From assembly GCA_002689655.1 (NCBI GenBank), contig NZHC01000053.1, positions 49,972-98,353 on the forward strand: a stretch of 48,382 nucleotides of DNA, written 5' to 3'. How positions within the stretch are numbered: position 1 is the stretch's first letter; each line of letters opens with the position of its first letter. Shown one piece after another: positions 937 through 43,564 of this stretch. The notes under the pieces are model-generated. The model was given only the letters and a program-made list of their open reading frames with translations, was not told where the DNA came from and searched no databases. Both the position numbers and the translations under genes were made by a program. The DNA is from Rhodopirellula sp. (GTDB lineage Bacteria; Planctomycetota; Planctomycetia; Pirellulales; Pirellulaceae).

Positions 937-1015
937 ACAGCGAACAATCTGGCAAACTGAGTACATAACTGACTGGTAAACTTTGGCATCTGATCAACAC
1001 GGCACGAGCGGCCCT

Positions 1016-2392: not shown

Positions 2393-2429
2393 TTGATTCC
2401 GGCAGCGGACGAATCTCTAGCGGTGTCAA

Positions 2430-3650: not shown

Positions 3651-3791
3651 AACATTCTCCTCGCAACAAGAAACTTCAGAGGCGATTCATATTCCTCTGC
3701 ATGCCCCGTGCCACTTTTGCTTGGAACACGAATGCTTAAAAATGGCAACATCCGCACAAACGGGATAGCATCCCTCCCATCAGCGACCACT

Positions 3792-5138: not shown

Positions 5139-5159
5139 CGACGAAGGCTCATGAAATAA

Positions 5160-12100: not shown

Positions 12101-12708
12101 TCAAGTTGTGCCTTTTGAATATCGACACCATTATTCATGATTTCGATGAAGTAACGATCATCGAATACATTATGGAACCAACCCGCAATTTCTCTGGCTT
12201 CTTTTTCAACCTCTGCAGTATCGATTCCTTTGATCACAGCACGACTGAATTCACTACTGACACATCCGGAGAGGCAGACAATTCCTTCGTTGTATTTTTC
12301 GAGAATTTCCTTGTCGATGCGTGGCTTGAAATAGAAACCTTCGAGCGAAGCTGCGCTGGCAAGCTTGATCAGATTACGAAACCCGGTCCGATTCTTCGCC
12401 AAGAGAGTGAGATGATAACTGGCCGCCTTGCTGCTACTGGCACCGCCTTTGTCGAAGCGGCTTCCGGGTGCGATGTATGCCTCGTATCCAATGATGGGAT
12501 TGATGCCAGCCGACTTGGACTTTCGATAAAACTCCAACGCTCCATGCAAATTGCCATGGTCGGTCAAGGCCAACGAGTTCATCCCATGCTCGACACAACG
12601 GTTGACCAGTTTTCCGATATCTCCAGCGCCATCCAACAAGCTGTAATGACTGTGGCAGTGCAGGTGTGTGAAGGGGCGAGCTGGAGCTTCCTTCGCGATC
12701 TCATTCAT
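9157..12708 (-). CDS. dnaE: DNA polymerase III subunit alpha
   Basis: Catalytic subunit of the replicative DNA polymerase, 1183 aa, normal for the DnaE1 type. The N-terminal PHP domain starts with HLHCHSHYSLLDGAGD. The catalytic core holds the metal-binding PDIDIDF motif near residue 415, with TARGSGVGAIVCYAL before it. VYQEQVM and the GYGFNKSHSTAYALLAYQTAYLKAHYP segment mark the thumb/fingers and tandem HhH region. An OB-fold follows (GGMISSIKFAHTKN, then IRCIVWP). The ATG has AAGGA about eight bases upstream. It appears to be a single-gene unit. Identification is secure from several independent motifs. Confidence 0.98.
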   Translation of the reverse strand: MNEIAKEAPARPFTHLHCHSHYSLLDGAGDIGKLVNRCVEHGMNSLALTDHGNLHGALEFYRKSKSAGINPIIGYEAYIAPGSRFDKGGASSSKAASYHLTLLAKNRTGFRNLIKLASAASLEGFYFKPRIDKEILEKYNEGIVCLSGCVSSEFSRAVIKGIDTAEVEKEAREIAGWFHNVFDDRYFIEIMNNGVDIQKAQLDNAVEIAKRMGLPLVATSDCHYVDRGDAEAQDIMLCINTGRYRTDTSRMKMENDEFFLRSPEQMYEKFPGLEHAVARSQEIADSVDIDLELGKYYFPSFECPDQKAPIDYLRELCIKGLKERYESEPERFKGEDLSDEVMARLDRELDVIEKLGYPTYFLIVWDFVLHARSKGISATARGSGVGAIVCYALYMSHVCPLRYDLLFERFLDESRTEPPDIDIDFEKERRGEVIDYVKERYGSEMVCQIGTFGTLAARAAIKDTGRALGVPLARVNQITEMVPDELKITLDKALTKSADLKMAYDGDPEIRELLDLAMKIEGLARNVGTHAAAVVIADKPLTEYVPLGRVPGKQDVITQWPMGDVEASGLLKMDFLGLRNLTILSRTVQLIEQTTGKAVDPLKFPLDDKASYALLQRGETKGVFQLESGGIRDLLLRMKPDHFTDIIATAALYRPGPLEGGMVDDYVNIKHGRQEPEYKHPVLKEILEETNSIMVYQEQVMRILNRLGKIPLANAYTCIKAISKKKESLINQNHEAFITGSVENGLAEKDANDIWNLIVKFAGYGFNKSHSTAYALLAYQTAYLKAHYPVEFMAALLSSDISGRNFKRKDALVEHMEDCDRMKIEVVPPSVNHSSADFSVSEGNIHFALSAIKGCGGFTAISIETERKKNGPYKDIFDFCERVDPAACNKSAIETLIKAGAMDEFNAHRSQLTAVIERAVQAGAAVQADKKSGQASLFGAFEEEEAGGGETVATPLPEMDEWPEREKLIAEKEVLGYYLASHPLAEYEKKLATFRTHTTDKLGDVKDRGEVVLGGMISSIKFAHTKNAKVGAPSKYANFDLEDMQGAIRCIVWPKGFVDVGDRIQPDAVVLARGKVDRRGGDEANLIIDELTPLDELDKRYTHGMRLRLDETDHDGDTISRLREIVRGYPGSQELLFSLRLREGETVHLKSEKYRVEITMELRDRIDDLLGSGHYKLLMSKPR

Positions 12709-13212
12709 CGTGATTCCTTCCTGATTACGAAATGCAGAAGCATTGCGAAACGGTTGAGGAGGGTGGCATTTTTCAAGGGCTGGAAAGCTGAGCCGGCTGC
12801 CGCATGGTGTCCCAGCAAGCGTCGAACTGCCGGCCAGCTTCCTGTGCGTCTAAGGTAGCGAACCGAGACCGGTTGGCAATCATGGCGTATTGTCAGCCGC
12901 CTAGCTCCAGAGCAACAAATTTCGGTCCACTTCGTTGAGGGTTCGCTGAAAGGGCTCACGATGCCGCATTTTGCCCTCCTGAGCGGACGCGAAACCGTCG
13001 TGGAAACGGTGTTTTCCGGGAATCACGCATCGAGTTCGATGCAAATCGCTCGCGGTCGCCTCCCCCCCTGCGCCACCCTGATGACGGCTGACTTAAGAGA
13101 GAACTGAAGCTCTTCAGCATGCGTAAACATGATTGCCGCATGTGAATCGGGGTGCAAACCCTCGTTTTTAGCCGGATAGTGGCGTAATCTGCGTCGATTG
13201 GTGTAAGCTAAG
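12709..13212. other. Divergent promoter region between dnaE and the DoxX gene
   Basis: About 500 bp with no convincing gene. It separates two divergently transcribed units, so promoters for both should be here. The inverted repeat GTAAGC...GCTTAC lies at about 13203-13220 and would overlap the GTG used as the upstream-most start of the next gene. That makes it either a regulatory site or a hint that translation starts further in. Confidence 0.5.
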
Positions 13213-14256
13213 GTGCTTACGTTGACCTTGTATCCTGCGACTCGCGGGCCGAGGAATCCCCACCAACTTTCCCGCCAACGGATCGCCTGTTTCGTGCTTA
13301 AGCTCGTACTCTCACCACTCCGTCTCTGCGTAGGCTGGAGCCTTTCCCCTCGGATTTTGGGTCTGACCGGGGCCGTCATGCTGGTTCTTCTGCGTCTTAC
13401 CGTTGGCTGGCATTTCTACAGCGAAGGTATCGATAAGAAAGCAGCCGGAGACTGGAGCGCCGCTCCGTTCTTTGCCAATGCAAAGGGCCCAATGGCAGAA
13501 GATTTCAGGCAGCTAGTATGGGATGCAGACGGAGAATTCCGACTCAATCGTGCTGCCGCGATGCAAAACTGGGCTGTTTTCCGTAATGGTGTTGCCGACC
13601 ACTACGGGTTCACTGAGCCGCAAAAGGCCCAAGCTCAAGCCAATTACGCTAAGGCTGTTGAACAATACGACTGGGTTCTGAGCGAAAATGCTACTGATCT
13701 CGAAGAGTACGCCTTAGGCCGAGAACGCATCGCGAAGCTCGAAACAGAGGGCCAAGAAAAGGCGGTTCGCGATGGCGTCACCAGCCTCGGGGGACAACGA
13801 GACACAATCCGGCGAGAATGGAAGCAAAAAGCCGCTCCCACGTTGGCACAAATTGATGCGATTTGGGCCAATTATGAGGCTGACCAGAACGCACTGGCAA
13901 CCGGCCCACAGGCGGAAGCAAGTCCCTATTACCGCTTAGTCAGACCACGTACTGAGCGAATTGACACCAGCGTGATCGATCGGTTCGTCCCCTACTTTGA
14001 CATTGCCATTGGGTTATGCCTGCTTCTTGGCTTCTTCACACCCGTTGCGGCGTTGGCTGCAGCAGGTTTTCTCGGTTCAGTGTTTTTGAGCCAATTTCCT
14101 CCCACAACCGGGCCAGGCTCAAGTAATTACCAACTGATTGAGTGCATGGCTTGTTTGGTACTTGCCGCCACAGGATCAGGGCGTCTGGCTGGACTCGACT
14201 ACTTCCTGCATTTAAGCGTTCGCAAAACTTGGGGCGGTCAGGCCCCGCAAAGCTGA
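13213..14256 (+). CDS. DoxX-family membrane protein with large soluble insert
   Basis: Integral membrane protein of the DoxX type. The first membrane segment (about residues 50-70, LGLTGAVMLVLLRLTVGWHFY) carries the usual LRL.VGWHF.EG start of the family. An insert of about 165 residues follows (KKAAGDW to TSVIDRFVPY), rich in charged helix-forming residues. Two or three hydrophobic segments (FDIAIGLCLLLGFFTPVAAL and onward) and a PPTTGPGSSNYQ motif complete it. The frame is open from GTG 13213. GTG 13294 is an alternative; ATG 13378 would cut into the first membrane helix. It ends 59 bp before the Gfo/Idh gene, so an operon is likely. The physiological role of such planctomycete DoxX proteins is not known. 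Confidence 0.85.
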   Translation: MLTLTLYPATRGPRNPHQLSRQRIACFVLKLVLSPLRLCVGWSLSPRILGLTGAVMLVLLRLTVGWHFYSEGIDKKAAGDWSAAPFFANAKGPMAEDFRQLVWDADGEFRLNRAAAMQNWAVFRNGVADHYGFTEPQKAQAQANYAKAVEQYDWVLSENATDLEEYALGRERIAKLETEGQEKAVRDGVTSLGGQRDTIRREWKQKAAPTLAQIDAIWANYEADQNALATGPQAEASPYYRLVRPRTERIDTSVIDRFVPYFDIAIGLCLLLGFFTPVAALAAAGFLGSVFLSQFPPTTGPGSSNYQLIECMACLVLAATGSGRLAGLDYFLHLSVRKTWGGQAPQS

Positions 14257-14315
14257 TCCATCACCCCACTGAACCAAAACAAAACAAAGCACACTCGAAA
14301 TAGAGGATTTTTTTC

Positions 14316-16181
14316 ATGGTCGATAAACTATCAGCTGATCAACGTGACGTCGGCGAACACAACTATTATTCAGCAGTCGGAAGCTACTACGATGTAAATC
14401 GGCGCGATTTCTTACGTGGCATTGTTGCTGCGGGAGCCGTGAGTGGGGCTGGACTAGGTGCGGCGTACTTCGGGTACGGCAAAGTCAAAGATCCTGTCCG
14501 GGTGGCTGTCATTGGAACGGGTGATGAAGGCAACGTATTGATCGGAGGCTGCAACCCCGAATACGTCGATGTCAAAGCGATCTGTGACATTCGTCCGTTC
14601 GGACAACACCGCGCCTTTCACGGTGACTGGTCCAGCCCATCGGCTCTTGGACGTCGTCCGGGTCTGATCAGCGTCGCCGGCTATAAGGATGAGGCCGAAG
14701 CGAGGCGAAATGTCAAAGTCTACGATGGCAGCAATGGTGGTATCATGGCCTGCCTTGATGATCCTGACATCGAGGCCGTGATCATCGCATTGCCGCTTTG
14801 GCTGCATGCCCCCGTGGCTGCTTTGGCGATGGAGCGAAAACTGCACGTTTTGACCGAAAAGCTGATGGCTCACAACGTGGCCCAGTGCAAGGTTATGTCG
14901 CGAATGGCAGCCGAAATGAAAGATCAAGGCGGAAACCCAATTCACTTGGCGACCGGTCACCAGCGGCACTACAACGTCAAGTATGACAACGCCATCAACT
15001 TGATCCGTTGGGGATTGCTCGGACAACTCCATCACATCCGAGCTCAATGGCATCGTGGCAACCTGCCAGGTGGTGATAGCTGGAAGATGCCAATTCCCGG
15101 TGGCGAAAAAGATGCAAACGGGAAGATGATCGATAAGATCGCAGGCGATATCCGCAATCGCCAGTCCAAACTCAAGAACGCCACCAGCCCCGACGACATC
15201 GTCCGACTCCAGGCTGAACTCGCACAACTGCAGGCATGGGACGCTGACAAAAACGTCAACCCCAAGGACTTCGGCTACGAAGACTTCACCGCGGGTGGAC
15301 GAATGTTCTCTTCGATGGATGAACTGCATCGCTGGAGATTGTTCGAACGAACAGGCGCTGGCCTGATGGCCGAACTCGGCAGCCACCAGCTTGACGCAGT
15401 CAGTATTTTCCTGAGCTCACTTCGCAACGATGGTAAAAAAGTCCACCCACTCAGCGTTCATGCTGTCGGCGGAAGACATATCATGCCAGTGGACCGCGAC
15501 GCAGGTGACCACGTGTACTGCATGTTTGAATTCCCTGGACCGGAGTACTCGGAAACATTCGACGTTGGCTACTACGATAAAGTCGAAAACTATCCCCCAA
15601 GCACGCTCAATAAACAAACCAAACAATGGGACCGTGCTGAACCGTTGCCAGGTTATGAAACAGATCCAAACAAGAAGGTTGTCGTGACCTACTCGTCGAT
15701 CAACGGTAACGGCTTCGGTGGATGGGGCGAAGTTGTGATGGGAAGTAAGGGAACGCTTGTTCTTGATAAAGAGACGGACGTTCTGCTGTATCGCAACAGC
15801 GATACGAGCAGCAAGGTTGGTGTTGCAAAACAGGACGGTGGGTACGTGCTGGACACAAGTGCGAGTGGAGATTATGCCGCACCAGTCGCGAAAGCAGCCG
15901 ACTCCGGACCTGTCAGCCGTGGCTATCGCGAAGAAATCGAGCACTGGGCATATTGCATCCGTAACCCCGACAAAGAAAATCACCCTCGTTGCTACCCCGA
16001 AGTCGCAATGGGAGATGCCGTGATTGCTTTGGGGACCAACGTGGCCTTAAAGAACGCGGCGGCCGGAAAAGGCGGGCACCTCCAGTTCAAGGAGGAGTGG
16101 TTCGAAGTCGACAACGACGCGACACCAGATGGTAGTGAGATCGCAACCGAAACAGCAAGAATGAAGAAACCTGTTGCCTAG
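14316..16181 (+). CDS. Tat-exported Gfo/Idh/MocA family oxidoreductase
   Basis: NAD(P)-dependent oxidoreductase fold, 621 aa, longer than the usual 330-450. The N-terminus carries a Tat signal (NRRDFLRGIVAAGAVSGAGLG). The Rossmann start VRVAVIGTGDEG follows, then a TEKLMAHN segment where many relatives have EKP. The C-terminal domain has AELGSHQLDAVSIFL, with the conserved histidine, and the GWGEVVMGSKGTLVLD stretch. Export of such enzymes is common in planctomycetes, and their cofactor is expected to bind in the cytoplasm before Tat transport. Substrate unknown; related families act on sugars or inositol. It is the second gene after DoxX and ends at a strong terminator. Confidence 0.93.
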   Translation: MVDKLSADQRDVGEHNYYSAVGSYYDVNRRDFLRGIVAAGAVSGAGLGAAYFGYGKVKDPVRVAVIGTGDEGNVLIGGCNPEYVDVKAICDIRPFGQHRAFHGDWSSPSALGRRPGLISVAGYKDEAEARRNVKVYDGSNGGIMACLDDPDIEAVIIALPLWLHAPVAALAMERKLHVLTEKLMAHNVAQCKVMSRMAAEMKDQGGNPIHLATGHQRHYNVKYDNAINLIRWGLLGQLHHIRAQWHRGNLPGGDSWKMPIPGGEKDANGKMIDKIAGDIRNRQSKLKNATSPDDIVRLQAELAQLQAWDADKNVNPKDFGYEDFTAGGRMFSSMDELHRWRLFERTGAGLMAELGSHQLDAVSIFLSSLRNDGKKVHPLSVHAVGGRHIMPVDRDAGDHVYCMFEFPGPEYSETFDVGYYDKVENYPPSTLNKQTKQWDRAEPLPGYETDPNKKVVVTYSSINGNGFGGWGEVVMGSKGTLVLDKETDVLLYRNSDTSSKVGVAKQDGGYVLDTSASGDYAAPVAKAADSGPVSRGYREEIEHWAYCIRNPDKENHPRCYPEVAMGDAVIALGTNVALKNAAAGKGGHLQFKEEWFEVDNDATPDGSEIATETARMKKPVA

Positions 16182-27255: not shown

Positions 27256-28929
27256 ATGTTGTCCATGACACTCCTCTCATTTCTATTTTTCACTGGACTT
27301 GTGATTGTTCTCACGTGGTGGTTCACCCGTGGTTCTGATCTGAACACTGACGAGGGTTACTTTCTCGCTGGCCGGAGTTTGACAGGCATCTTTATCGCGG
27401 GATCACTGCTATTAACTAATTTATCGACTGAGCAACTAATCGGCTTGAATGCAGGATCATTCAATGATGGACTATCGGTGATGTGCTGGGAAGTAATCGC
27501 TGGCATGTCGCTCGTGGTTTTGGCTCTGGTGTTTTTACCGCGATACCTAAAATCGGGTATCGCAACGATTCCACAATTCCTTGAAGAGCGTTACGGTCCA
27601 TCAGTCAGGGCGTTAACGGCCGGCATTTTCATCGTCGCATACATGCTAATTTTGCTTCCATTCGTATTATTTCTTGGTGCTCGAGGGCTCAATGGAATGC
27701 TCGATCTGCAAACAATGCTGGATATCCAAAATGAGTTGACGGCAATTTGGGGTGTAATCATCTTCATTGCGATTCTGGGTGGTGGATATGCCATCTGGGG
27801 TGGGATGCGAGCGATCGCGGTTTCTGACACTTTCAATGGTGCAGGCCTGTTAATCGGCGGCCTGATGATCACTTTCTTTTCACTGCAAGTCGTCGCTGGT
27901 GACGAGGGCGGCTTCATGGGAGCTTTTGAAAAGATCAAGGCAGAAGACCCGGATGCATTCAACTCGATTGGCTCTGCCGACGAGGGGACTCACTGGCCGA
28001 CGCTCTTCACCGGCGTGCTATTGCTAAACTTTTTTTATTGGTGCACGAATCAGCAAATCATCCAAAGAACATTCGGGGCCAAGAATCTTGCTGAGGGTCA
28101 GAAAGGCGTGCTTTTGGCAGCGTTCTTCAAAATCCTCGCCCCGCTGATCCTCGTTCTGCCAGGCATCATCGCCGCGTACCTTGTCATCGGGATCAGTGAT
28201 GCTGAGATGGTGCAAACCGTGGGCAAGAATGAAGATGGAAATTGGATCGCGGACCGAGCTTATGGTGCCCTGGTAAGCAAAGTACTACCGAGTTGGCTGC
28301 TCGGTTTCTTTGCCGCGGTTGTCGTGGGCTCCATTCTATCGACATTCAACTCAGTGCTGAATTCCGCTGCCACACTGTTTTCACTTGATGTCTATAAGAA
28401 ATATCTAAACCCGAAAGCATCCACCAAGTCTGTTGTCCGCTCTGGTCAGATCTGCAGTTTCGTAGTCGCAGTCTTCGCGGTGATCGCAGCCCCTACAATC
28501 TTCTACGGCCAAGAAGCAATTTTTGGATTCTTCCAAACACTCAATGGAGTCTATTTCATCCCGCTACTTGCGATCATCATGGTTGGGATGTTCCACCGGT
28601 ATGCAGATGGCAAGTCAGCACTCATCACCTTGCTCGTGGGGCTTACGTTGATGACCATTGGTACATTCTTCACTGGCGAAGACAAAGCCCAGAATATTGA
28701 CGGCTGGTTGGCTGACTCTTTTGGAAGTCCATTCCACTACATGGGTGCTGTCTTTGCTCTGCTAGTCGTACTGCAATTGTTGCTGAGTGCCATCGGGATG
28801 AAAAGAACTGAACCTTATGTCCAAGAAGACAAGGGTCTGGTTGATCTAACGCCATGGAAACCAGCTCCCTTCGTAGGCGGAGCTTTGATTCTTCTAGTGC
28901 TGGGAATTTATGCATTTTTTGCAGTTTAG
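27256..28929 (+). CDS. Sodium/solute symporter, SSS family (YidK/SglT-like)
   Basis: Membrane transporter of 557 aa with about 14 hydrophobic segments. SSS hallmarks are the FLAGRSLTGIFIAGSLLLTNLSTEQLIGLNAG start, GGGYAIWGGMRAIAVSDTFNG in the middle, and NQQIIQRTFGAKNLAEGQKG followed by a late segment with FNSVLNSAATLFSLDVYKKY. This pattern fits the sugar-type branch that includes E. coli YidK and Vibrio SglT. In E. coli, yidK lies beside the sulfatase gene yidJ; here the next gene is also a sulfatase. It likely imports a monosaccharide or related product with Na+. A separate promoter is likely because of the 318-bp gap upstream. Confidence 0.94.
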   Translation: MLSMTLLSFLFFTGLVIVLTWWFTRGSDLNTDEGYFLAGRSLTGIFIAGSLLLTNLSTEQLIGLNAGSFNDGLSVMCWEVIAGMSLVVLALVFLPRYLKSGIATIPQFLEERYGPSVRALTAGIFIVAYMLILLPFVLFLGARGLNGMLDLQTMLDIQNELTAIWGVIIFIAILGGGYAIWGGMRAIAVSDTFNGAGLLIGGLMITFFSLQVVAGDEGGFMGAFEKIKAEDPDAFNSIGSADEGTHWPTLFTGVLLLNFFYWCTNQQIIQRTFGAKNLAEGQKGVLLAAFFKILAPLILVLPGIIAAYLVIGISDAEMVQTVGKNEDGNWIADRAYGALVSKVLPSWLLGFFAAVVVGSILSTFNSVLNSAATLFSLDVYKKYLNPKASTKSVVRSGQICSFVVAVFAVIAAPTIFYGQEAIFGFFQTLNGVYFIPLLAIIMVGMFHRYADGKSALITLLVGLTLMTIGTFFTGEDKAQNIDGWLADSFGSPFHYMGAVFALLVVLQLLLSAIGMKRTEPYVQEDKGLVDLTPWKPAPFVGGALILLVLGIYAFFAV

Positions 28930-29192: not shown

Positions 29193-32100
29193 ATGAACTT
29201 CCAAAGTACCGCCGCTAAATATTCCAACAGCTGCCTCTTTCTGCTGTTTGTTATCAGTTGCCTACTCGACCGCACGAGTGCCCTGGCAGCTCCTCAATCG
29301 CTCACGCCGCAATCAGCTCAACCCGAGCGCCCCAATATCATCATCGTTTTCATCGATGACATGGGTTGGTCTGACCTATCATGTTTCGCCGGCAAGCAAG
29401 CCGAAACCGAGCACATTGACCAGTTGGCATCCGAAGGGATTCGCTTCACCAACTTCTACGTCAATTCGCCAATCTGTTCACCGTCTCGCGTCGCTCTTGC
29501 TACCGGCCAATACCCGCAACGTTGGCACATCACCTCCTATCTGAGCAATCGCAGATCCAATCACGACCGTGGGATGGCGCAGTGGCTTAGTCTGTCGGCC
29601 CCCATGTTGGCGCGACAGCTAAATCAAGCTGGTTACGCAACAGGGCATTTTGGCAAGTGGCACATGGGCGGACAACGTGATGTGGGAGATGCTCCTTTGA
29701 TCAGTAAGTACGGATTTGACCGATCACTCACGAACTTTGAGGGCCTTGGCCCTCGCGTATTGCCGTTGAAAAACTCTTTTGATGGAAAGCCACCGAAACG
29801 CCATGACTTAGGATCTGCCAAATTGGGCCGAGGATCGATTCGCTGGCTAGACCGATCGATCATCACTGCAGAATTCACTCATCAAGCGATTGATTTCATC
29901 GAGGAATCCGTGGCGAACAATCAACCGTTTTATCTCAATCTCTGGCCGGACGACGTTCATTCGCCGTTCTTTCCTCCGCAACAACTTCGCGATGCATCCG
30001 ACGGCAGCAAGCGTGAACTGTACTATGCCGTACTCGATGCTATGGACCAACAGTTGGGAAAACTGTTTTCAAGAGTCCGCGACGATGAACAACTTAGAAA
30101 GAACACACTGATCATCGTTGCTTCTGACAATGGCCACGAAGATGGGGCTGGTCAATCAGATCCCCTACGAGGTTCCAAAACATGGCTATACGAAGGCGGC
30201 ATTCGCTCCCCTCTGATTGTCTGGGGTCCAGGACTAATCAGCCAGGACGCGACCGGAACGACCAACACAGAATCCATTTTGTGCGCAATGGACATCAATG
30301 CCTCTCTTTATCCGCTCACACAAGTGTCACCGCCAGCCGGGATGGAACTCGACGGAGAGCCGCTTACTGCGACCTTATTGGGAAAATCGCACGCAAGCCG
30401 TTCCCAACCGATCTTCTGGCGGCGACCTCCTGATCGTCCCGGTAATCAACGCGACGACAATCCAGATCTGGCAGTCCGTGATGGCCAATGGAAATTGCTT
30501 GTCAACTTTGATGGCAGCAACCCACAACTTTTTGATCTTTCGCAGGACATCAGTGAACAGAAAAACCTGATCACTACCAATCCAAAAGTTGCGAAAACAC
30601 TTCTGGCCGCCGTCTTTCAATGGAACCAGAACATACCAGCAGACGCGGCGGTGCCGGATTTCAAACCCGGGGGAATGAACGATGCACCGCTTGCCGAGAA
30701 TTTATTCGTCAACCCTGTAGGTGAAGGAGCTGACCCGTGGGTCACTCGTGACCCAAATTCACCTCGTTACTTGTGGTGTCTCTCTGAAGGCAATCGTGCA
30801 ATCGCAGTCCACACGTCAGACCGCTTGGAATCCATGGGGCAAAAGCACATTGTCTGGGCAGCTCCCGCAACAGGTCCTTATTCGAAAGAAGTATGGGCAC
30901 CTGAATTGCACTTCCTTGATGGCCGATGGCACATCTACTTTGCCGCATCTGATGGTGACAACGCAAACCATTTGTCGTACGTCCTGCAAAGTGAAGACGA
31001 AGACCCCCTGGGTCCGTATTCACTTCATGGACCTTTGGCAACAGGCATGGGACAAGATGGGCGGAGCCCGAATCTTTGGGCAATCGATGTAACTGTGCTT
31101 AAGCATGCTGCAAAACACTATGCGATCTGGTCAGGCTGGGATGCGGCGGAAACCGATCAACAGTATCTCTACATTGCACCCATGAAATCTCCCACCGAAT
31201 TAGCTGGTCCCCGAATACGTTTGTGCAGCAACGATGACTATCCTTGGGAGTTCACAAAGTACACTCCTGACTCAGCGGCGAATGATCGAGGCAGAGGACT
31301 GAATGAGGCACCACAAATATTCCAGGCAGAGGGGCGAACCTTCATCACCTTTTCCTGTGGCGCATCGTGGTTACCGACCTACAAGCTGGGCCTCCTGGAA
31401 CTCATAGGTGACGATCCACTCAACCCAAACTCATGGAAGAAGCGTGCGACACCAATTTTCACGGGCAACGAGTCCACGATTGGCGTTGGGCATTCCTGTT
31501 TTGTCACCTCACTCGATGAAAGTGAAAATTGGCATATCTATCATGCCAAACGAGACCGGGAACCGGGGTGGCGAAGAACAGTCTTCGTACAACCGATGAA
31601 AACAGGAAAGCGGGGCTTCCCATTGCTTGGTCAGGCCTTGGCCAAAGGCTCCGCAACGCTACGCCCCCAAGAACAACAAACAGTTCCGATCAGTCAGATT
31701 GTCCGAGAATCACTTCGACAAAAAAGTGCTCCTGAAAAGTTCAGTTACTTTGGCCATCACCAGTATGCCAAACCTACTTCCAATGGGTTCGCACTTGGTG
31801 TCATTCCCAATCAACCAGTGAATGAGTTCCGCAGTGGTGAGAAGCTGGTCTTTGACAACCAATTGCCAGCTAATCTGAAAATCGCAGTCACGATCGATTT
31901 GATGGACCGCCGCAACGCCAGAGATGCAGGACTTCTGTTTCGCACGACGGGACCTTCCATCGGCTATGACGCTCAACGCGGCTACTTTGCCGGGTTGATC
32001 CCTAGCACCAACCTGATCATTTTCGGGAAAACTGACGGCGAAACATGGACCGAGTTGGCGAGACAACAACACGCCATTGATACCAGTAAGAAACAACGCC

Positions 32101-32261
32101 TCATCGTGACGTGCAAAGGTGATCAGTTCACTGTGAGCCTGAATGGTACTCCGATGATCTCAGTCAAAGATGCTACCTATGATCGCGGAACCATTGGCAT
32201 GCGTGTGGTCAACACGCATGCAGTCTTCAGTGATCTTGAGTGCTCACCGCTAACTGAGTAA
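29193..32261 (+). CDS. Secreted sulfatase / GH43-like glycosidase fusion
   Basis: A 1022-aa exported enzyme. The frame opens earlier at a TTG, but the ATG used has GAGG nine bases upstream and begins a clean signal peptide (to about ALAAP). Residues about 45-480 are a type I sulfatase: FIDDMGWSD metal site, CSPSR with Cys95 for conversion to formylglycine, GHFGKWHMGG and SDNGHEDG. Residues about 512-830 look like a GH43-type five-blade propeller with three acidic residues in family order: D514 in ADPWV, D632 in AIDVTV and E705 in NEAPQ, plus EVWAPELHFLDGRWHIYFAASDGDN. The last 170 residues resemble a LamG/DUF1080-type beta-sandwich. Probable role: removal of sulfate and of arabinose, xylose or galactose side units from a sulfated polysaccharide. 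Linkage unknown. Confidence 0.93.
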   Translation: MNFQSTAAKYSNSCLFLLFVISCLLDRTSALAAPQSLTPQSAQPERPNIIIVFIDDMGWSDLSCFAGKQAETEHIDQLASEGIRFTNFYVNSPICSPSRVALATGQYPQRWHITSYLSNRRSNHDRGMAQWLSLSAPMLARQLNQAGYATGHFGKWHMGGQRDVGDAPLISKYGFDRSLTNFEGLGPRVLPLKNSFDGKPPKRHDLGSAKLGRGSIRWLDRSIITAEFTHQAIDFIEESVANNQPFYLNLWPDDVHSPFFPPQQLRDASDGSKRELYYAVLDAMDQQLGKLFSRVRDDEQLRKNTLIIVASDNGHEDGAGQSDPLRGSKTWLYEGGIRSPLIVWGPGLISQDATGTTNTESILCAMDINASLYPLTQVSPPAGMELDGEPLTATLLGKSHASRSQPIFWRRPPDRPGNQRDDNPDLAVRDGQWKLLVNFDGSNPQLFDLSQDISEQKNLITTNPKVAKTLLAAVFQWNQNIPADAAVPDFKPGGMNDAPLAENLFVNPVGEGADPWVTRDPNSPRYLWCLSEGNRAIAVHTSDRLESMGQKHIVWAAPATGPYSKEVWAPELHFLDGRWHIYFAASDGDNANHLSYVLQSEDEDPLGPYSLHGPLATGMGQDGRSPNLWAIDVTVLKHAAKHYAIWSGWDAAETDQQYLYIAPMKSPTELAGPRIRLCSNDDYPWEFTKYTPDSAANDRGRGLNEAPQIFQAEGRTFITFSCGASWLPTYKLGLLELIGDDPLNPNSWKKRATPIFTGNESTIGVGHSCFVTSLDESENWHIYHAKRDREPGWRRTVFVQPMKTGKRGFPLLGQALAKGSATLRPQEQQTVPISQIVRESLRQKSAPEKFSYFGHHQYAKPTSNGFALGVIPNQPVNEFRSGEKLVFDNQLPANLKIAVTIDLMDRRNARDAGLLFRTTGPSIGYDAQRGYFAGLIPSTNLIIFGKTDGETWTELARQQHAIDTSKKQRLIVTCKGDQFTVSLNGTPMISVKDATYDRGTIGMRVVNTHAVFSDLECSPLTE

Positions 32262-32626
32262 TTGCAAGCGATGCGTGTCCGGAAAGTGAAATCCACGACG
32301 TGTTTCAATGCAATGAGCCGACCAAAGCACTTTAAGCATGGCGGCAGAGCAAATGCATGCCCCTGTCGGTATGCTGCAATCGTTCTCACGCCGTCATCGC
32401 AGTGTGCCGTCCTGAAGTCCTGTTGTACTGGAGGTACACGAATGAGCAGTGAAGTTATCGCTGGCCATGAGAACGTTGGAAAAGAGAACTCTGAAAATGG
32501 ATTCTCTACCCTTCGTTTCCCATGAGGGACCAACGACAGAATCGAAAAGGCGGACTTTGGCAGAAGCATCAACAGGAAGCTACAATCGCCGTCCATGCAA
32601 CACACAGCACCCTATCGGAACCACAA
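32262..32626. other. Gap between the two sulfatase genes
   Basis: No separate gene. The second sulfatase frame is open from an ATG at 32522, but that would add 35 unlikely residues before the signal peptide. No terminator is visible, so read-through from the first sulfatase is possible. Confidence 0.5.
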
Positions 32627-34033
32627 ATGACAGATTCAAGTTTACGTCCACTGGATGGCTTCCAAATTACACTGCTGACAGTTCTCGCCTGTTTTTTTTC
32701 TGAGTTCGCATTTGCCGAGCGTCCTTCAGGAAAGCCAAATGTGCTTCTACTTCTGTCTGACGATTTGGGGTATCAGGATATTGGCTGCTACGGCGGCCCA
32801 GTGAAGACACCGACACTGGACAGATTAGCATCCCAAGGCATGCGTTTCAGTCAGTTCTATTCTGGATGCGCCGTCTGTTCACCGTCACGAGCAACGCTGC
32901 TGACCGGGCGGCATCACATTCGGACGGGTGTCTACAGTTGGATCCATGATCCCAGTCAAAAATCACATTTACTCCGTCGGGAAGTTACTTTGGCAGAAGT
33001 ACTCAAGGACGCTGGATACGCTACTGCTCATGTTGGCAAATGGCACTTGGGACTCCCCACGCAACAACATTCCAAGCCAACCCCGGATCAGCACGGTTTT
33101 GATCACTGGTTTGCCACTTGGAACAATGCAGAGCCGAGTCACAAGAATCCGAACAACTTCATCCGCAATGGGGAACCAGCAGGGAAAACAGACGGATACT
33201 CCTGCCAGATTGTGGTCGACGAAGCGATCGCGTGGCTTGACAACCCCAGGGGCACGCATCAGCCATTCTTTCTGAACGTCTGGTTTCATGAACCTCATGC
33301 ACCGATCGCTGCCCCCAAGTCGATCGTTAACGAGTATGGTCCCACCACGAATCAAGCCGCCATCTATTCTGGCACCGTCGACAACACAGACAAAGCAATT
33401 CAGCGTCTACTGGTCAAACTGCAGCAACTTGATGTCACCGATAACACGCTGATCATCTATGCATCCGATAACGGAAGCTATCGTGACGACCGGACAGGGG
33501 GTTTGCGAGGTCGCAAGGGAATGAACTGGGAGGGAGGCATTCGAGTCCCTGGTATGTTCGTATGGCCCGGTGTCATCAAACAAGCCACGGTGTCGGCAAC
33601 TCCAGCAGGCTTGGTCGATGTCCTGCCCACGGTTTGTGGCTTGCTAGGGCTAAAAAAACCGGATCGGTATTTGGACGGCACAGACCTTACGCCGCTTTTA
33701 AAAGGACAGTCAAACGCCTGGCAACGGAAACAGCCTCTTTTTTGGCACCTTCAAAAATCAAGACCGATCGTTGCAATGCGCGATGGCGACTACTCACTAG
33801 TCGCCGAACCTGATTACGAGCTCTCGAAAAACAACATGTTTCAAGAAGCATGGATTCCAAAAATCAGATCTGGCGGATATCGCAATTTCCAACTGTTCAA
33901 CCTTACGAAAGATCCGCAGCAAATGAACGACCTTGCAGCGAAGAACCCCGAGTTACTGGAAAAGCTGAAATCCAAGCTACTCGGAATCAATCAGAGTATC
34001 ATGCAAGAAGCGCACGATTGGACGGCCCAGTAA
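32627..34033 (+). CDS. Secreted sulfatase (type I, formylglycine)
   Basis: The 468-aa exported arylsulfatase-family enzyme has a signal peptide ending near FAFAERPSG. The metal site LLSDDLGYQDIGCYGG, the CSPSRATLLTGR signature (Cys84 becomes formylglycine), VGKWHLG and the YASDNGSYRD late metal site are all present. The C-terminal domain with the LFWHLQKSRPIVAMRDGDY segment is typical. It lies 366 bp after the sulfatase/GH43 gene in the same direction, suggesting successive desulfation steps. Specificity cannot be read from motifs. A longer start (ATG 32522) exists but is less likely. Confidence 0.94.
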   Translation: MTDSSLRPLDGFQITLLTVLACFFSEFAFAERPSGKPNVLLLLSDDLGYQDIGCYGGPVKTPTLDRLASQGMRFSQFYSGCAVCSPSRATLLTGRHHIRTGVYSWIHDPSQKSHLLRREVTLAEVLKDAGYATAHVGKWHLGLPTQQHSKPTPDQHGFDHWFATWNNAEPSHKNPNNFIRNGEPAGKTDGYSCQIVVDEAIAWLDNPRGTHQPFFLNVWFHEPHAPIAAPKSIVNEYGPTTNQAAIYSGTVDNTDKAIQRLLVKLQQLDVTDNTLIIYASDNGSYRDDRTGGLRGRKGMNWEGGIRVPGMFVWPGVIKQATVSATPAGLVDVLPTVCGLLGLKKPDRYLDGTDLTPLLKGQSNAWQRKQPLFWHLQKSRPIVAMRDGDYSLVAEPDYELSKNNMFQEAWIPKIRSGGYRNFQLFNLTKDPQQMNDLAAKNPELLEKLKSKLLGINQSIMQEAHDWTAQ

Positions 34034-34193: not shown

Positions 34194-35243
34194 ATGCCCG
34201 TCTGTACATCTTGCACAGGCCATTCTTCCCTCTCCATGTCGAAACCCTCCATGTCCCGCACTATTTCCCCAGCTATTTCCCCAGCTATGTCATCAGCTAT
34301 GTCCTCCATCAAAACTCTTTGCAGACACACGTTCTGCAGCCTGACCTTCTGCAGCCTCTTTCTTTTCGGGCTCATGTCTGAGTCTGCACAAGCTGCTGAC
34401 GCGTTTCAAGTCAATGACAACGCGGGCAAATACACTGACATCATTACCCCTGATGGCAAGCCAATCCTACGTTACATGTATGAACGGGATACTTCGGATG
34501 CTGCCAAGACGTTCGACACGGCGAAGGTTTTTGCTCATGTCTTTGCTAACGATGGCACAACAACCCTCACCAAGGGAGCCGGCGGCAAGTTCCCGCATCA
34601 TCGCGGAATCTTCATTGGCTGGAACAAACTCAAGCAGGGAGGCAAGAGCCATGATCTCTGGCATGTCCGCAACACGGTTCAAAAGCACCGTGAATTCAAA
34701 GAAACCGAGGCGGCAGACAAGGGCGCCAAACTCACTGCTTTGATCGACTGGATCGGAGTCGATGGCAAACCTGTCCTCGAAGAACAACGCACATATCAAG
34801 TAAGGTCACAAGATGACGCCTACAGCGTCATCGATTTCACTTCAACACTCACAGCCATACAAGGTGATGTCGAACTCAATGGTGATCCAGAGCATGCTGG
34901 TGTGCAGTTCCGCCCCTCACAACAAGTCGCTGAAAACCAATCAGCAGCATATACATTCCACAAGGAAGGAATTGATCCCAAAAAAGATCTCGACTTGCCG
35001 TGGGTCGCAGAGAGTTTTCAAGTGGGAGATGCCTGGTGGTCAGTGCAGCACATGAACCACCCATCAAACCCTGACGGTGCTCGCTGGTCCGCCTATCGCG
35101 ACTACGGCCGCTTTGGCCCTTTTACCGTCGCCAAAATTGCTGATGGTGAATCGGTGACATTCCGCTATCGTTTCCGGGTCACCCAAGGCAAGTCGCAAGA
35201 CCGCGAACACCTGCAGGCAAGCTTTGACCAATACAGCCAGTGA
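34194..35243 (+). CDS. DUF6807 (PmoA-like) exported protein
   Basis: The frame encodes up to 349 aa. The exported part begins after a hydrophobic segment ending SESAQAAD. The body has the family features: YMYERDTSDAAKTFD, KFPHHRGIFIGWNKL, LWHVRN, EDR-like EEQRTYQVRS and a C-terminal VTFRYRFRVTQGKS. The name PmoA comes from database annotation of this family and does not imply methane oxidation; related proteins are common beside glycoside hydrolases and may bind or process carbohydrates. The true start is unclear, because ATGs at 34194, 34236, 34251, 34287 and 34299 are all in frame and lie in a repeat-rich leader. The last gives a normal signal peptide. Confidence 0.87.
   Translation: MPVCTSCTGHSSLSMSKPSMSRTISPAISPAMSSAMSSIKTLCRHTFCSLTFCSLFLFGLMSESAQAADAFQVNDNAGKYTDIITPDGKPILRYMYERDTSDAAKTFDTAKVFAHVFANDGTTTLTKGAGGKFPHHRGIFIGWNKLKQGGKSHDLWHVRNTVQKHREFKETEAADKGAKLTALIDWIGVDGKPVLEEQRTYQVRSQDDAYSVIDFTSTLTAIQGDVELNGDPEHAGVQFRPSQQVAENQSAAYTFHKEGIDPKKDLDLPWVAESFQVGDAWWSVQHMNHPSNPDGARWSAYRDYGRFGPFTVAKIADGESVTFRYRFRVTQGKSQDREHLQASFDQYSQ
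34261..34361. repeat. 12-bp and 15-bp tandem repeats in the DUF6807 leader
   Basis: Four 12-bp units ctatttccccag/ctatgtcatcag fill 34261-34307 (protein ISPA ISPA MSSA MSS). Two 15-bp units with ttctgcagcct follow near 34329-34358 (TFCSL TFCSL), inside the hydrophobic export segment. Both keep the frame and change the leader length. Confidence 0.88.
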
Positions 35244-36404: not shown

Positions 36405-37340
36405 CTATTTCAGACCGGCAACATCCATTTTGATGACAAAGACGGAGTCCTTTGCCGTGATAAACAAGTGCTTTCGCTGGGGTCCAGCGAAGGTAACATT
36501 CGCAGTCCATCCTTTCGGAACGGCAATATTTTCAATTTTCTTCCCATCACGATTGAAAATCGTTACCCCCCGACCGGTTAAGAACAGGTTACGGTGTTCA
36601 TCAATCGTCATCCCATCACTTCCCATCGAACAAAACAAAGTCCGATCGATGAGTTGGCCCGATTCATCGATCCGATACCGATAGGTTTTACCATCGCCGA
36701 TGTCAGCGATGTAGAGTTGTCGATTCTTTGCGTCACCAATAATACCATTGGGTTGTTTCAGGTCACCAACAACTTTTGACACTACACCTTCTGGCGAGAC
36801 ACGGTAAACGCCACGTGGATTATCTTCGGGAATCACCTGAGTCCAATAGGGGCGTTTGTAGAGAGGATCGGTGAAATAAATCGCGCCATCATGATCAACC
36901 CAGCAATCGTTAGGCCCTGAAAATCTTTGTCCCTCGCTTCCCGCCGCAAGGACTCGGTGCTTTTGATCGCGGATATCAATCTGCCAAAGTTCGTTATTCG
37001 CATCGGCACAAGCGATGATTTTGTTGGGAGCGATGAAGAACAACCCGTTCGCCCGGCCACAAGGCTTCAACCAGTCAGTTAATTTGCCCGTCGCAAAGTC
37101 ATAGCGAACAATTCGATCATTGGGCTGATCCGTAAAATAGACATTACCCAAAGCATCAGCTGTTGGGCCCTCGGTGAACGAGTAAGCATCGTCCACTAAT
37201 GTCAGCATTCCCTGCGTCAGCGACGAATGACCAAGCGAGCGATCAGGCTCGGCAGCTTGGCTCAATGAAATCAGCGCAGCCAAGAACACTGCTGAGACGA
37301 GTTTGACACGAATAAAATTCTCAAGGCGTTGAAATGACAT
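36405..37340 (-). CDS. SMP-30/gluconolactonase-like exported beta-propeller
   Basis: The 311-aa product begins with a signal peptide (MSFQRLENFIRVKLVSAVFL, cleaved near SQAAEP). The body is a six-bladed propeller of the SMP-30/LRE type: DDAYSFTEGPTADALGNVYFTD, CGRANGLFFIAPNKIIACAD, FSGPNDCWVDHDGAIYFTDPLY, KQPNGIIGD and GSDGMTIDEHRNLF. The early Glu, Asn and Asp residues that usually bind the divalent metal are present. Relatives hydrolyse sugar lactones, which would fit oxidation of a sugar released in the neighbouring sulfatase locus; this link is inference. A longer frame to 37427 lacks a signal at its start. A promoter is likely upstream at about 37400. Confidence 0.9.
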   Translation of the reverse strand: MSFQRLENFIRVKLVSAVFLAALISLSQAAEPDRSLGHSSLTQGMLTLVDDAYSFTEGPTADALGNVYFTDQPNDRIVRYDFATGKLTDWLKPCGRANGLFFIAPNKIIACADANNELWQIDIRDQKHRVLAAGSEGQRFSGPNDCWVDHDGAIYFTDPLYKRPYWTQVIPEDNPRGVYRVSPEGVVSKVVGDLKQPNGIIGDAKNRQLYIADIGDGKTYRYRIDESGQLIDRTLFCSMGSDGMTIDEHRNLFLTGRGVTIFNRDGKKIENIAVPKGWTANVTFAGPQRKHLFITAKDSVFVIKMDVAGLK

Positions 37341-37650
37341 GCAAGAATCCAAGAAATGAAGAAGATAAAAACAAGTTTCGGAAGGCGTTGCGGGGGCACC
37401 CGAGATCCCCGTTCGAGTCACTCTCATTTTGGGGCGATCTCATGACGTCCTAAGCCGACCGCCCCGATCGCCATCCGCCACTAGTCTACTGAAATGCAGT
37501 TCAGAGAATGCGCATGACTCAATTCACTGCGAAAAGACATACCAGAAAGAGTCAACGGATAAAAAATCTGCGGCAGGATCGTCCCTGAACACATTTTGAC
37601 GCCTTTTCTGAGTAGACAGGGTCGTTAGACTAAAAGAGGATAAGGAAACC
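37341..37650. other. Divergent intergenic region
   Basis: No gene. It separates the minus-strand lactonase-like gene from the P-II gene and must hold both promoters. No regulatory motif is evident by eye. Confidence 0.5.
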
Positions 37651-40202: not shown

Positions 40203-40530
40203 GTGATCCGCGGGTAAAAACTTGGACAATGCGAGCCGAATTCGCCGTGAAACATGAGTTTTCCGAGCGGAACTGACCCCGACTGCCGATTCCTCTAGCG
40301 GGGTTCTGTCAGGCGTCTATACTTCTGACAGTGCACCTCGGGTGCGGCGATTGCCATGCGATCAATGGGTCTGCCCTGTCGCAGCACTTTGGCGGCCCAC
40401 GAGTTACCCTTGGGTTGGCCACTGAAATCACCCTAGCAACCATTAGATTCGGCTACACGGCCCTGATGACAGCAATTCCATGCTGCAGGCCCTACCTTCT
40501 CGCTCATATCCGCCCACACAGTTTCTCAAC
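40203..40530. other. Intergenic region before cysD
   Basis: No gene or recognisable riboswitch. The cysD frame is open back to an ATG at 40480, but ATG 40531 gives the normal protein start. A sulfur-responsive promoter would be expected here; none can be identified by eye. Confidence 0.5.
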
Positions 40531-41442
40531 ATGTCGGACTATAGCCTTACCCACCTCAAGCAACTCGAAGCTGAGAGCATTCACATCCTTCGTGAGGTGG
40601 TCTCGGAATTCCAAAAGCCCGTCATGCTCTACAGCATCGGCAAGGACTCGGCAGTATTGGTTCACTTGGCCCGAAAAGCTTTTTATCCGGCCAAGCCTCC
40701 TTTCCCTCTGATGCACGTCGATACGACGTGGAAATTTCGGGAGATGATCGAATTCCGTGAGAGCTACGCGCGGAAAGAGCTGGGCCTGGACCTGATCGTT
40801 CATACCAACGAAGAAGGTTTGAAGCACGACATCAAACCTTGGGAAGACAGCGAGCGACATACAGAGTTGATGAAAACAGATGCTCTTAAGGCTGCCTTGG
40901 ACAAGTACCAGTTCGACGCAGCGTTTGGCGGTGCACGCCGCGACGAAGAGAAAAGTCGAGCCAAGGAGCGAGTGTTCAGTTTTCGAGACAAGTCCCATCG
41001 CTGGGACCCAAAGAATCAACGACCTGAGCTTTGGAATCTTTACAACGGGCGAGTCAATAAAGGTGAATCGATCCGCGTCTTTCCCATGAGCAATTGGACG
41101 GAGTTAGATGTATGGCAATACATTCATCTTGAGAACATTCCGATTGTACCGTTGTACAAATCAGCAATGAGAAAGGTTGTTTTACGGGATGGGATCCTTT
41201 TGATGCGGGATGATGACCGCATGCCTCTTCTTTCGGGTGAAAAAGAAGAAACCAAAATGGTGCGGTTCCGCACGCTCGGGTGTTATCCGCTTTCAGGTGC
41301 CGTGGAGAGTGAAGCGACGACACTGCCTGAGATCATTCAGGAAATGTTGCTCGCTAAAACGAGTGAACGTCAGGGCCGAATCATCGACCAAGATGAGGGC
41401 GGTGCCGGAATGGAAGAAAAGAAACGACGCGGTTACTTCTAA
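40531..41442 (+). CDS. cysD: Sulfate adenylyltransferase subunit 2
   Basis: Small subunit of ATP sulfurylase, which makes adenylylsulfate (APS) from sulfate and ATP. The 304-aa length matches E. coli CysD. The protein begins [20 protein letters not shown] and carries the PP-loop [64 protein letters not shown] and [11 protein letters not shown]. The gene is followed 184 bp later by cysNC in the same direction; together they give the complete activation enzyme. Expected cytoplasmic. Product feeds sulfate assimilation or sulfotransferases. Confidence 0.97.
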
Positions 41443-41626
41443 AGGTACAACCAAGGCACGCCGGCGGTTCGATTAAGAAAGCCGCAGGCATGGGCACCGC
41501 CAATGCCAACTCAGCCCTCAACAAGGGCAAGCATAAAACATTGAAGCGAAGACTTTCAAACCAGCTGAATGCAGTTCTCGCTCACCGGTCCAATCCCCAA
41601 GATCATATAAATTCCGAATCGATCTC

Positions 41627-43564
41627 ATGAGCCATCAATCAGACCTGATTGCCACTGACATCAATGCCTACCTCAAGCAGCACGAATCTAAGCAACTGCT
41701 GCGATTCATCACCTGCGGTAGTGTCGATGATGGAAAAAGTACGCTGATCGGCAGACTACTGTACGACAGCAAAATGATTTATGAGGATCAGCTTTCACAA
41801 CTCGAGGCAGAGTCAAAGTTGGTGGGTACCACCGGCGGAAAATTTGACCCGGCTTTGCTGACTGATGGACTGAAGGCTGAACGTGAGCAGGGCATTACCA
41901 TCGACGTCGCCTACCGGTACTTCAGCACGCCGAAACGCAAATTCATCATTGCCGATACACCGGGGCATGAGCAGTACACACGGAACATGGCAACAGGTGC
42001 CAGCACAGCAGACCTGGCCATCATTCTGATTGATGCGCGACACGGTGTCTTAACCCAAACACGCAGACACAGCTTCATCGTCTCGCTGCTGGGGATCCGT
42101 CATGTCATCGTGGCCGTCAACAAAATGGATTTGCTTGATTTCGATGAGGAGCGATACAACGAAATATGCGATGAATACCGATCATTCGCGATGCGTTTGG
42201 ATCTACCGGACCTTCACTTCATTCCCATCAGTGCACTCGATGGTGACAATGTGGTCGACCGAAGTGAGAAATCGCCTTGGTACAGTGGCAGTACCCTGAT
42301 GAATTTCCTCGAAACGGTTTACATCGGTAGCGATCGAAACCTGCAGGATTTCCGCATGCCAGTGCAGTACGTCAATCGTCCCAACCTGGACTTCCGTGGT
42401 TTCTGTGGAACGATCGCATCGGGTATCGTTCGCCCCGGCGAAGAGATCATGGTGTTACCCAGCAGGCAAACATCCAAGGTCAAAGAAATCGTGACGTTTG
42501 ATGGTGCGGTGGAAGAAGCCTTTGCACCACTATCAATCACTCTCACTCTGGAAGACGAAATCGACGCAAGTCGTGGTGACATGATCGTCCGACCAGGAAA
42601 CTTGCCACGCTCGCGTGACCAAATCGAAGCGATGCTGGTCTGGATGGATTCTGAATCCATGGTCCCCGGCAAAACATTTTTGTTCAAACACACCTCCCAA
42701 ACGCAGCCGGGGACGATTGAATCGCTCAAATACCAAGTCGATGTCAACACGCTGCACCGCAATCCAGCACCCGAACTGGGCCTGAATGAAATCGGTCGTG
42801 TCAGCATCTCACTGAACGCTCCCATCCACTTTGATGCGTATCGCCGCAACCGCAGCACGGGCGCGTTTATTGTGGTCGACCGGATCACCAATGCCACCGT
42901 TGCCGCTGGCATGATCCTGGACAAGTCAGGAGATGGTTCCCCAAAATCAGTTTGGGATGATGAAGCCCAAAACGATGACAACAAGACTGAATTCTCAGCA
43001 GTCTCAGCAGACGAACGCAGCGCTCGATTCGGTCAAAAACCAGCCACGGTCCTGCTGACTGGACTTACTGGAAGCGGTAAGACATCCATCGGCCAAGCAG
43101 TGGAAAGAAAGCTGTTCGCAGAGGGTCGAGCAGTCGCGATGATCGATGGTGAAAAAGTACGTGGCGGGCTCACCCGTGACCTGGGCTATACGGCTGACGA
43201 TCGGAGTGAGAATCTACGACGAAGCGGGCACCTCGCTCACATTCTCAATGATGCTGGACTGATTTGCCTGGCTTCATTCGTCGCACCTTCAGAAGATGTT
43301 CGCCAAAAAGTTGGGGCACTCATCGGTGAAGACCGTTTCCTTGTCGTCCATGTCGCAACGTCGCTGGAAGTCTGCCGCGAGAGAGACACCAAAGGTCAAT
43401 ACAAATTGGCTGACGAAGGTGAATTGCCAAACTTCCCCGGTGTCACAGCGAAATATGAAGCTCCGGTGAATCCGGATCTTGTACTGAATGCGACCGAGCA
43501 AAGCATCGACGCTTGCGCCGATGCCGTTATCGAATTATTGCGTTCCAAGCAGATCATCAAGTAA
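41627..43564 (+). CDS. cysNC: Bifunctional sulfate adenylyltransferase subunit 1 / APS kinase
   Basis: A 645-aa fusion. Residues 1-430 are the CysN GTPase: P-loop GSVDDGKST (31-39), [21 protein letters not shown] and the following beta-barrels. GTP hydrolysis drives APS synthesis with CysD. From about residue 475 comes the APS kinase domain with P-loop GLTGSGKT. Its substrate motifs differ from the E. coli enzyme: DGEKVR for DGDNVR and FVAPSEDVR for FISPHRAER, so the usual phosphorylated Ser is Ala. [12 protein letters not shown] is kept. The expected product is PAPS, used for reduction or sulfation. No terminator is evident right after the stop. Confidence 0.95.

Follow-up and report, generated by a model that had tools for sequence, protein, structure and literature searches.

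A fused sulfatase and GH43 glycosidase

The window analysed here, a 48,382-nucleotide stretch of contig NZHC01000053.1 from Rhodopirellula sp., carries on the forward strand at positions 29193-32261 a gene in which a sulfatase and a glycosidase are joined in one chain. The gene is a single open reading frame of 1022 amino acids with zero internal stops in its translation; it starts with ATG, and gagg lies 6 bases upstream. A signal-peptide-like N-terminus (residues 1-33, positions 29193-29291), in which a hydrophobic run leads to SALAAP, is followed by an S1 formylglycine sulfatase domain, hereafter S1a (about residues 47-484, 29331-30644), a short linker (about residues 485-504, 30645-30704), a five-bladed GH43 propeller (residues 506-809, 30708-31619) and a binding-module-like C-terminal domain (about residues 845-1020, 31725-32252). 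The N-terminus was read by eye and looks export-like, as had been proposed in an original prediction made by a model from the letters of the window.

That prediction of a single polypeptide joining a sulfatase to a GH43 domain is borne out, since the frame is open and Pfam finds both domains in it, Sulfatase at residues 47-376 (E 5.8e-45) and Glyco_hydro_43 at 506-809 (E 1.8e-36), both far above the cut-offs; the region of residues 512-830, for which a GH43 domain had been claimed, is largely covered by the second match. An AlphaFold2 model of the whole chain (44 sequences) has a predicted local distance difference test value (pLDDT) of 84.2 and a predicted template modelling score (pTM) of 0.63, and a model of the GH43 and C-terminal part (526 amino acids, 32 sequences) has a pLDDT of 91.0 and a pTM of 0.90, with GH43 as a five-bladed beta-propeller. 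Searched with Foldseek, the fusion model matches S1_16 and S1_19 sulfatases and GH43 enzymes within one chain.

Conservation of both active sites

The catalytic residues named in the original prediction are correctly numbered and complete at both sites: Cys95 (29475-29477), the presumed formylglycine residue, stands in CSPSR, and Asp514 (30732-30734), Asp632 (31086-31088) and Glu705 (31305-31307) occupy, in the order of the family, the positions of the general base, the pKa modulator and the general acid. Their conservation was followed in an alignment of 44 rows, composed of the window and 43 of 48 full-length relatives (L033, L060, L071, L078 and L079 were left out); a wider alignment of 60 rows, including 4 duplicate pairs, agrees with it at the positions compared.

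In the sulfatase domain D55, D56, C95, P97, R99, K155, H157, H256, D312, N313 and K329 are identical in 44/44 rows. These include the C-x-P-S-R motif with its Cys, Asp-Asp and Asp-Asn as metal ligands, and the sulfate-binding Lys and His residues; in the kappa-carrageenan sulfatase AMOR_S1_16A metal- and sulfate-binding roles are reported for D18, D19, D263, N264, K287 and H201 (PMC11760155). The GH43 residues D514, D632 and E705 are likewise identical in all 44 fusions and align with D168, D283 and E344 of AtAbf43C, every single mutant of which loses activity (PMC12493170). Because the catalytic residues are invariant and the triad matches residues that AtAbf43C needs for activity, both the sulfatase and the GH43 domain are probably active across the fusion family.

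The fusion among related loci

Related loci are represented here by the best 80 of at least 578 confirmed relatives, chosen for their likeness to the fusion, and counts among them do not express prevalence. By record title they belong to Planctomycetota and Verrucomicrobiota, together with one Kiritimatiellae metagenome-assembled genome (MAG; L077) and a few records named plainly as bacterium. S1a and GH43 lie in one frame in 52 of the 80 loci. Domains were called with our own profiles on the open frames of these loci, which gave 81 relevant frames: S1a-GH43 with the C-terminal domain in 33, the same order preceded by a further sulfatase (S1x) in 15, S1x-S1a-GH43 in 3 that all reach a contig end, and S1a-GH43 in 1. 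The remainder consists of one frame with GH43 and the C-terminal domain, 20 with S1a (L075 is cut by a contig end and L083 is split), 6 with S1x-S1a (L090 is cut), one S1x-S1a-S1b, where S1b is the type of the separate sulfatase encoded downstream of the fusion in the window, and one S1a-S1b (L106, in which Pfam adds a GH43 that our profile missed).

Two sulfatases are thus present in 18 of the 52 fused loci, with S1x preceding S1a. S1x is closest in the PDB to S1_8 (one sequence was queried), and C-x-P-x-R is found in 18/18 aligned rows. The linker between S1a and GH43 measures 15-21 residues in the 54 of 60 rows that cover all domains, and in these 54 rows, duplicates included, the distances of the two domains are correlated (r 0.80, against a maximum of 0.17 after shuffling); this fits joint inheritance, and the shared history of the species contributes to the correlation too.

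In genomes of the same family as the window, GH43 with the C-terminus was matched in 21/100 at E 0.001 and strongly (>650 bits) in 12/100. Nine of the 12 strong matches lie in frames of more than 1000 residues, 8 with S1a and one (G087) with GH127; among the others, G092 and G088 have no S1a in the stretches examined and G031 stops at a contig end. At the level of the phylum, the GH43 profile matched 16/392 genomes at 1e-20; 3 matches exceed 600 bits, all in frames of more than 1000 residues, and the weaker ones lie in shorter frames, one of 990 residues and the rest below 670. The fusion is a whole family, including members with two sulfatases, which the original prediction had missed. Its statement that sulfatases and glycosidases are usually separate proteins understates how often sulfatases are fused, as published work on planctomycetes and Kiritimatiellales (PMC4807772, PMC6388578) and the sulfatase-rich genome of the window (at least 152 matches) indicate.

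Split, swapped and longer versions

The domains are modular. In L083 (6427-12514) four consecutive frames on the same strand encode an S1x-like sulfatase, S1a, a second S1x-like sulfatase, and GH43 with the C-terminal domain; in L110 a different sulfatase lies directly upstream of a separate frame for GH43 and the C-terminal domain, and L111 is alike by profile. In a tree of 85 rows fused and unfused forms of S1a are interleaved. A single origin of the fusion was considered and is unsupported, since the GH43 label has to change 10 times or more along starred branches of this tree, an overestimate given that L075 and L090 are cut by contig ends and that L106 has the GH43 seen by Pfam.

Other combinations were met as well. 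In L112 (6626-9595) a frame of 990 residues lacks a sulfatase and comprises two stretches of GH43 plus the C-terminal domain. An open frame of 3017 residues, putatively a single gene, lies in a Verrucomicrobiales MAG (L048, 3147-12197) and contains GH2 domains, a TraB/PrgY/gumN domain, a stretch with weak likeness to cellulases, a pair of sulfatases, GH43 and the CBM66-like domain; it is followed by overlapping frames for GH127-F5/8C-sulfatase (1310 amino acids) and sulfatase-sulfatase (1213 amino acids). In L070 a double-sulfatase fusion has as neighbours a sulfatase-GH2 chain (2210-6097) and a chain of a sulfatase with another GH43 (12200-15304).

The sulfatase domain

The closest PDB match of S1a is 9fo1, the S1_16 enzyme AMOR_S1_16A (E 4.4e-56), which Foldseek superposes with a target-based template modelling score (TMt) of 0.76 at 29% identity; the solved sulfatases nearest to S1a belong to S1_16 and S1_19 and are named for galactose-type sugars. 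S1a keeps the metal ligands, Cys, Lys and His of this top match and differs from it in the sugar contacts, Asn369/Gln370 of AMOR_S1_16A aligning with positions that vary within the fusion family and Trp79 with Tyr116 of S1a. A Trp that stacks on Gal is needed in S1_16 enzymes acting on 4S-Gal/GalNAc (PMC10154612, PMC11760155) and is present in 37% of S1_16 sequences (PMC10154612). At the Trp79 equivalent, read off the alignment with 9fo1, Trp is found in 0/44 fusions, Tyr in 38 and Phe in 6. Since only 37% of S1_16 sequences have the Trp, its absence speaks against the 4S-Gal/GalNAc type and not against S1_16, and S1a is unlikely to be a galactose-4-sulfatase of the type described so far.

R410, R411, D414, R415 and F182-E183 of S1a are identical in 59 or 60 of the 60 rows. 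In 26 S1a rows without GH43 by our own profile, the compared catalytic positions are identical and some others vary slightly; judged by these residues, S1a forms a single coherent type of enzyme, whether or not it is fused.

The GH43 domain and the sugar it probably releases

A GH43 profile was built from 38 domains, the window and 37 of 53 relatives. Its six best PDB matches, 9nxj, 9nxg, 5m8b, 3k1u, 5m8e and 3akf, range from E 2.9e-54 to 6.7e-45, and the next stands at 7.3e-21. These six include AtAbf43C (two entries) and SaAraf43A, which are GH43_26 exo-1,5-alpha-L-arabinofuranosidases (PMC12493170), and 5m8b and 5m8e carry arabinofuranosidase titles. Although the nearest sequences of solved structure include proven GH43_26 enzymes, identity to them is about 25-27%. 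Foldseek superposes the domain well on 9nxj (chain A, TMt 0.85, for the whole-chain model; chain B, TMt 0.85, for the 526-residue model).

The same module is found fused to GH127. In a genome of the window's family (G087; L134, 1625-5665) a GH127-F5/8C-GH43-CBM66-like chain of 1346 amino acids has no sulfatase, and its GH43 with C-terminal domain is 57% identical to that of the window; in L048 the frame directly downstream of the fusion is the GH127-F5/8C-sulfatase of 1310 amino acids. For both GH127 domains the top PDB match is 6ex6, followed by named beta-L-arabinofuranosidases. We take 6ex6 to be BT3674. BT3674 is reported to help in the degradation of larch arabinogalactan (PMC10850190). 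No further arabinose-specific family besides the GH127 of L048 was found among 20 neighbouring frames of 12 loci, which otherwise encode sulfatases, GH2, another GH43, esterase or hydrolase folds and planctomycete proteins of unknown function, or have no match.

GH43 is a polyspecific family, and the original prediction had left the glycan as one containing arabinose, xylose or galactose. The range can be narrowed: because the nearest solved GH43 sequences include proven GH43_26 arabinofuranosidases and the module is also fused to GH127, an arabinofuranose-type sugar is favoured.

The C-terminal domain

A profile of the C-terminal domain (21 hand-picked rows) matches levanase structures 4azz, 4b1l and 4b1m (E 1.5e-15 to 2e-15), and the domain is all-strand in the model, in keeping with the C-terminal beta-sandwich of the original prediction. 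We take these levanase structures to be CBM66 modules, which bind terminal fructofuranose, hence the label CBM66-like. Pfam 3keto-disac_hyd is found in 19 of the 21 profile members, the score of the window itself being under the cut-off. As the levanase module is its nearest relative of solved structure and the Pfam score of the window is sub-cut-off, a third catalytic domain, a 3-keto-disaccharide hydrolase, is not favoured.

Neighbouring genes and the host genome

Upstream of the fusion, at 27256-28929 of the plus strand, lies a sodium:solute symporter (PF00474; NF007790 683.8 bits, cut-off 401), and downstream, on the same strand, the separate sulfatase S1b (32522-34033; 29% identical to S1a) and a DUF6807 protein (34194-35243; PF14100), followed on the minus strand by an SMP-30/gluconolactonase-like protein (36405-37427; PF08450). 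The symporter and S1b flank the site in L030-L033, L115 and L119, and the DUF6807 and lactonase genes are kept in L030, L031, L033 and L119, the close relatives in which the whole order of symporter, fusion, S1b, DUF6807 and lactonase is conserved; this order was not seen in the remoter loci. That S1b might be a detached S1x was considered and rejected, as it is only 23-29% identical to the N-terminal domains of the longer relatives and thus no closer to them than to S1a (29%). Further away in the window, about 8 kb downstream of the fusion, CysD and a bifunctional CysN/CysC for sulfate activation are encoded at 40480-43564, and positions 40-8641 hold DUF1552 and DUF1592/1588/1585 genes on both strands.

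The genome has at least 17 other sulfatase frames of 700 residues or more. The 8 of these that were scanned (L127 only in part) include frames with PhoD, peptidase S9, FG-GAP, 3keto-disac_hyd or second sulfatase domains, and none of the 8 has a GH-family domain; a double-sulfatase frame of 1055 residues is located in L131 (G000:C43:45500-50500). The best S1x-type matches in this genome are three separate frames (467, 411 and 397 bits), and a separate S1x-type enzyme could, from these similarities, act in trans. There are 18 matches to FGE-type genes (PF03781, a broad family; some look like repeated contigs). FGE matches on G000:C12 and G000:C26 share their scores, as do G000:C41:31405-32487 and G000:C140:50913-51995, which suggests that repeated or redundant contigs are present in the assembly.

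Proposed action and its alternatives

We propose that the chain is a secreted bifunctional exo-enzyme that would desulfate and then trim arabinofuranose-type chain ends, a reading to which we give a probability of about one half. The CBM66-like domain would hold the non-reducing end of a sulfated glycan; S1a, after maturation of Cys95 to formylglycine, would remove a sulfate from that end or from directly beside it; and GH43, as an inverting hydrolase with D514 for its base, E705 for its acid and D632 for its pKa modulator, would cleave off the residue thus exposed. The released sugar would most likely be of the alpha-L-arabinofuranose type, making the target a sulfated arabinan or arabinogalactan-like glycan, and the neighbouring sodium symporter could take it up. 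We infer secretion, the identity of the sugar, action on the same residue and an acceleration of both steps by the fusion; for desulfation followed by cleavage of the same residue, plausible by analogy, the enzyme P36 described below is a measured precedent.

Several observations weigh against this proposal. S1a occurs without GH43, alone in its frame in 18 of the 80 loci and as S1x-S1a uncut by a contig end in 5, and at 24 compared positions S1a differs little or not at all between forms that have GH43 and forms that lack it, so S1a does not need this partner. In the congener L115, at the same place between symporter and S1b, a GH43 with C-terminal domain has its own signal-like start and stands without S1a, and the neighbourhood of symporter, S1b and DUF6807 is limited to close relatives. 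On the side of the sugar, the low identity to GH43_26-type structures holds over the whole domain, a clear GH127 was found in only 2 of the loci examined (L134 and L048), and GH127 also includes members with other activities. Three sulfatases expressed in Maribacter did not respond to arabinogalactan (PMC11036162). The whole-chain model has a pTM of 0.63 with no inter-domain error given, and how its active sites are placed towards each other cannot be read from it.

Both domains might instead serve the same glycan at different residues, S1a desulfating the backbone or a neighbouring sugar such as galactose while GH43 trims arabinofuranose branches, the fusion merely co-localising them. This is the most credible of the alternatives, if a doubtful one: the sulfatases closest to S1a among solved structures take their names from galactose-type sugars, the nearest GH43s include arabinofuranosidases, and S1a has other partners, in S1x-S1a and S1x-S1a-S1b. 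Against it, the residue in place of the Gal-stacking Trp is Tyr or Phe in 44/44 fusions, which makes a sugar besides galactose-4-sulfate as likely.

It is unlikely that the two domains came together by drift, without functional coupling, in a genome where sulfatases and gene fusions abound, and share only a signal peptide and export. The many sulfatase matches, the varied extra domains of the other long sulfatase frames and the tolerance of L115 for the absence of S1a would agree with such drift, and fusion by rearrangement has been discussed for planctomycetes (PMC4807772); the domain order and short linker are, however, kept across phyla, the catalytic residues of both enzymes are invariant, and 0 of the 8 scanned long sulfatase frames have a GH-family domain.

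That GH43 releases xylose, galactose or another pentose, from a sulfated xylan, xylogalactan or ulvan-type chain, seems improbable to us. The polyspecificity of the family would allow it, and with both models Foldseek ranks 5joz, another GH43 from a xyloglucan polysaccharide utilization locus, first (14% identity, poor superposition) and the beta-xylosidase 5z5d fourth, the identities being 12-14% and the root-mean-square deviations about 10; moreover the PDB molecule field of 5m8b and 3k1u reads beta-xylosidase, even if the title of 5m8b reads alpha-L-arabinofuranosidase. By profile, in contrast, GH43_26 arabinofuranosidases are in the six best matches, well ahead of other GH43s, and the GH127 partner points to arabinofuranose. 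An artefact, a frame error (which, near 30650-30730, would have refuted the original prediction) or an assembly chimera joining two genes, is ruled out by the frame, open throughout, and by the same fusion in 52 of the 80 related loci, and nothing was found in its favour.

Extending the proposed desulfation and trimming of chain ends to the whole family, it may be conjectured, with considerable doubt, that planctomycete and verrucomicrobial multi-enzyme chains, up to S1x-S1a-GH43-CBM66-like and the frame of 3017 residues with GH2 in front, strip sulfated arabinogalactan-like glycans of two different sulfates and of an arabinofuranose-type residue at the chain end. If true, one chain would do what is otherwise left to several separate enzymes; no description of a dedicated sulfatase-arabinofuranosidase for such glycans was found in the literature searched. 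Fast turnover of arabinogalactan is reported in a spring bloom (PMC11036162). Among the many planctomycete sulfatases, one that is joined to a glycosidase of guessable sugar offers a handle on its type: GH43 and its swap to GH127 point to arabinofuranose-type glycans. The forms with split domains, with one sulfatase and with two offer ready-made constructs for asking whether fusion speeds the sequential removal of glycan.

Comparison with known systems

Our literature search, which also covered sulfated arabinan with such enzymes and left most subscription journals outside its reach, returned no description of an S1-GH43-CBM66-like chain. AtAbf43C and SaAraf43A, among the best matches of the GH43 profile, share the propeller and catalytic triad of the fusion; they carry a CBM42 where the fusion has a sulfatase and a CBM66-like domain, and AtAbf43C is about 26-27% identical.

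P36 of Formosa agariphila is an S1_25 sulfatase-GH78 rhamnosidase of the ulvan pathway that performs consecutive steps at the non-reducing end (PMC8511951). The fusion, like P36, joins an S1 sulfatase and an exo-glycosidase in one chain, and both of its catalytic domains are complete; in P36 the sulfatase desulfates the non-reducing terminal residue, which is afterwards cut off by the glycosidase (PMC8511951). P36 is unlike the fusion in its sulfatase subfamily, its glycosidase family and its substrate, and its domains were analysed separately (PMC8511951).

Fusions are also on record in related phyla. Kiritimatiellales have S1_7-GH10, S1_7-GH32 and S1_15-GH29 chains and a fused S1_16 sulfatase (PMC6388578), and two planctomycetes with 122 and 129 sulfatases have an estimated 34 and 21 multi-domain ones, mostly with glycosidase and hypothetical domains (PMC4807772). 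The idea of fusion is the same as here; no GH43 partner is named in the available excerpts of these papers (PMC6388578, PMC4807772). The many GH43 and GH117 hits inside planctomycete sulfatases were read as distant relatedness (PMC4807772), and a fusion such as the one described here would account for these hits. Sulfatase-glycosidase fusions are already published, and what is new is the conserved combination of a sulfatase, GH43 and a CBM66-like domain, together with its two-sulfatase relatives.

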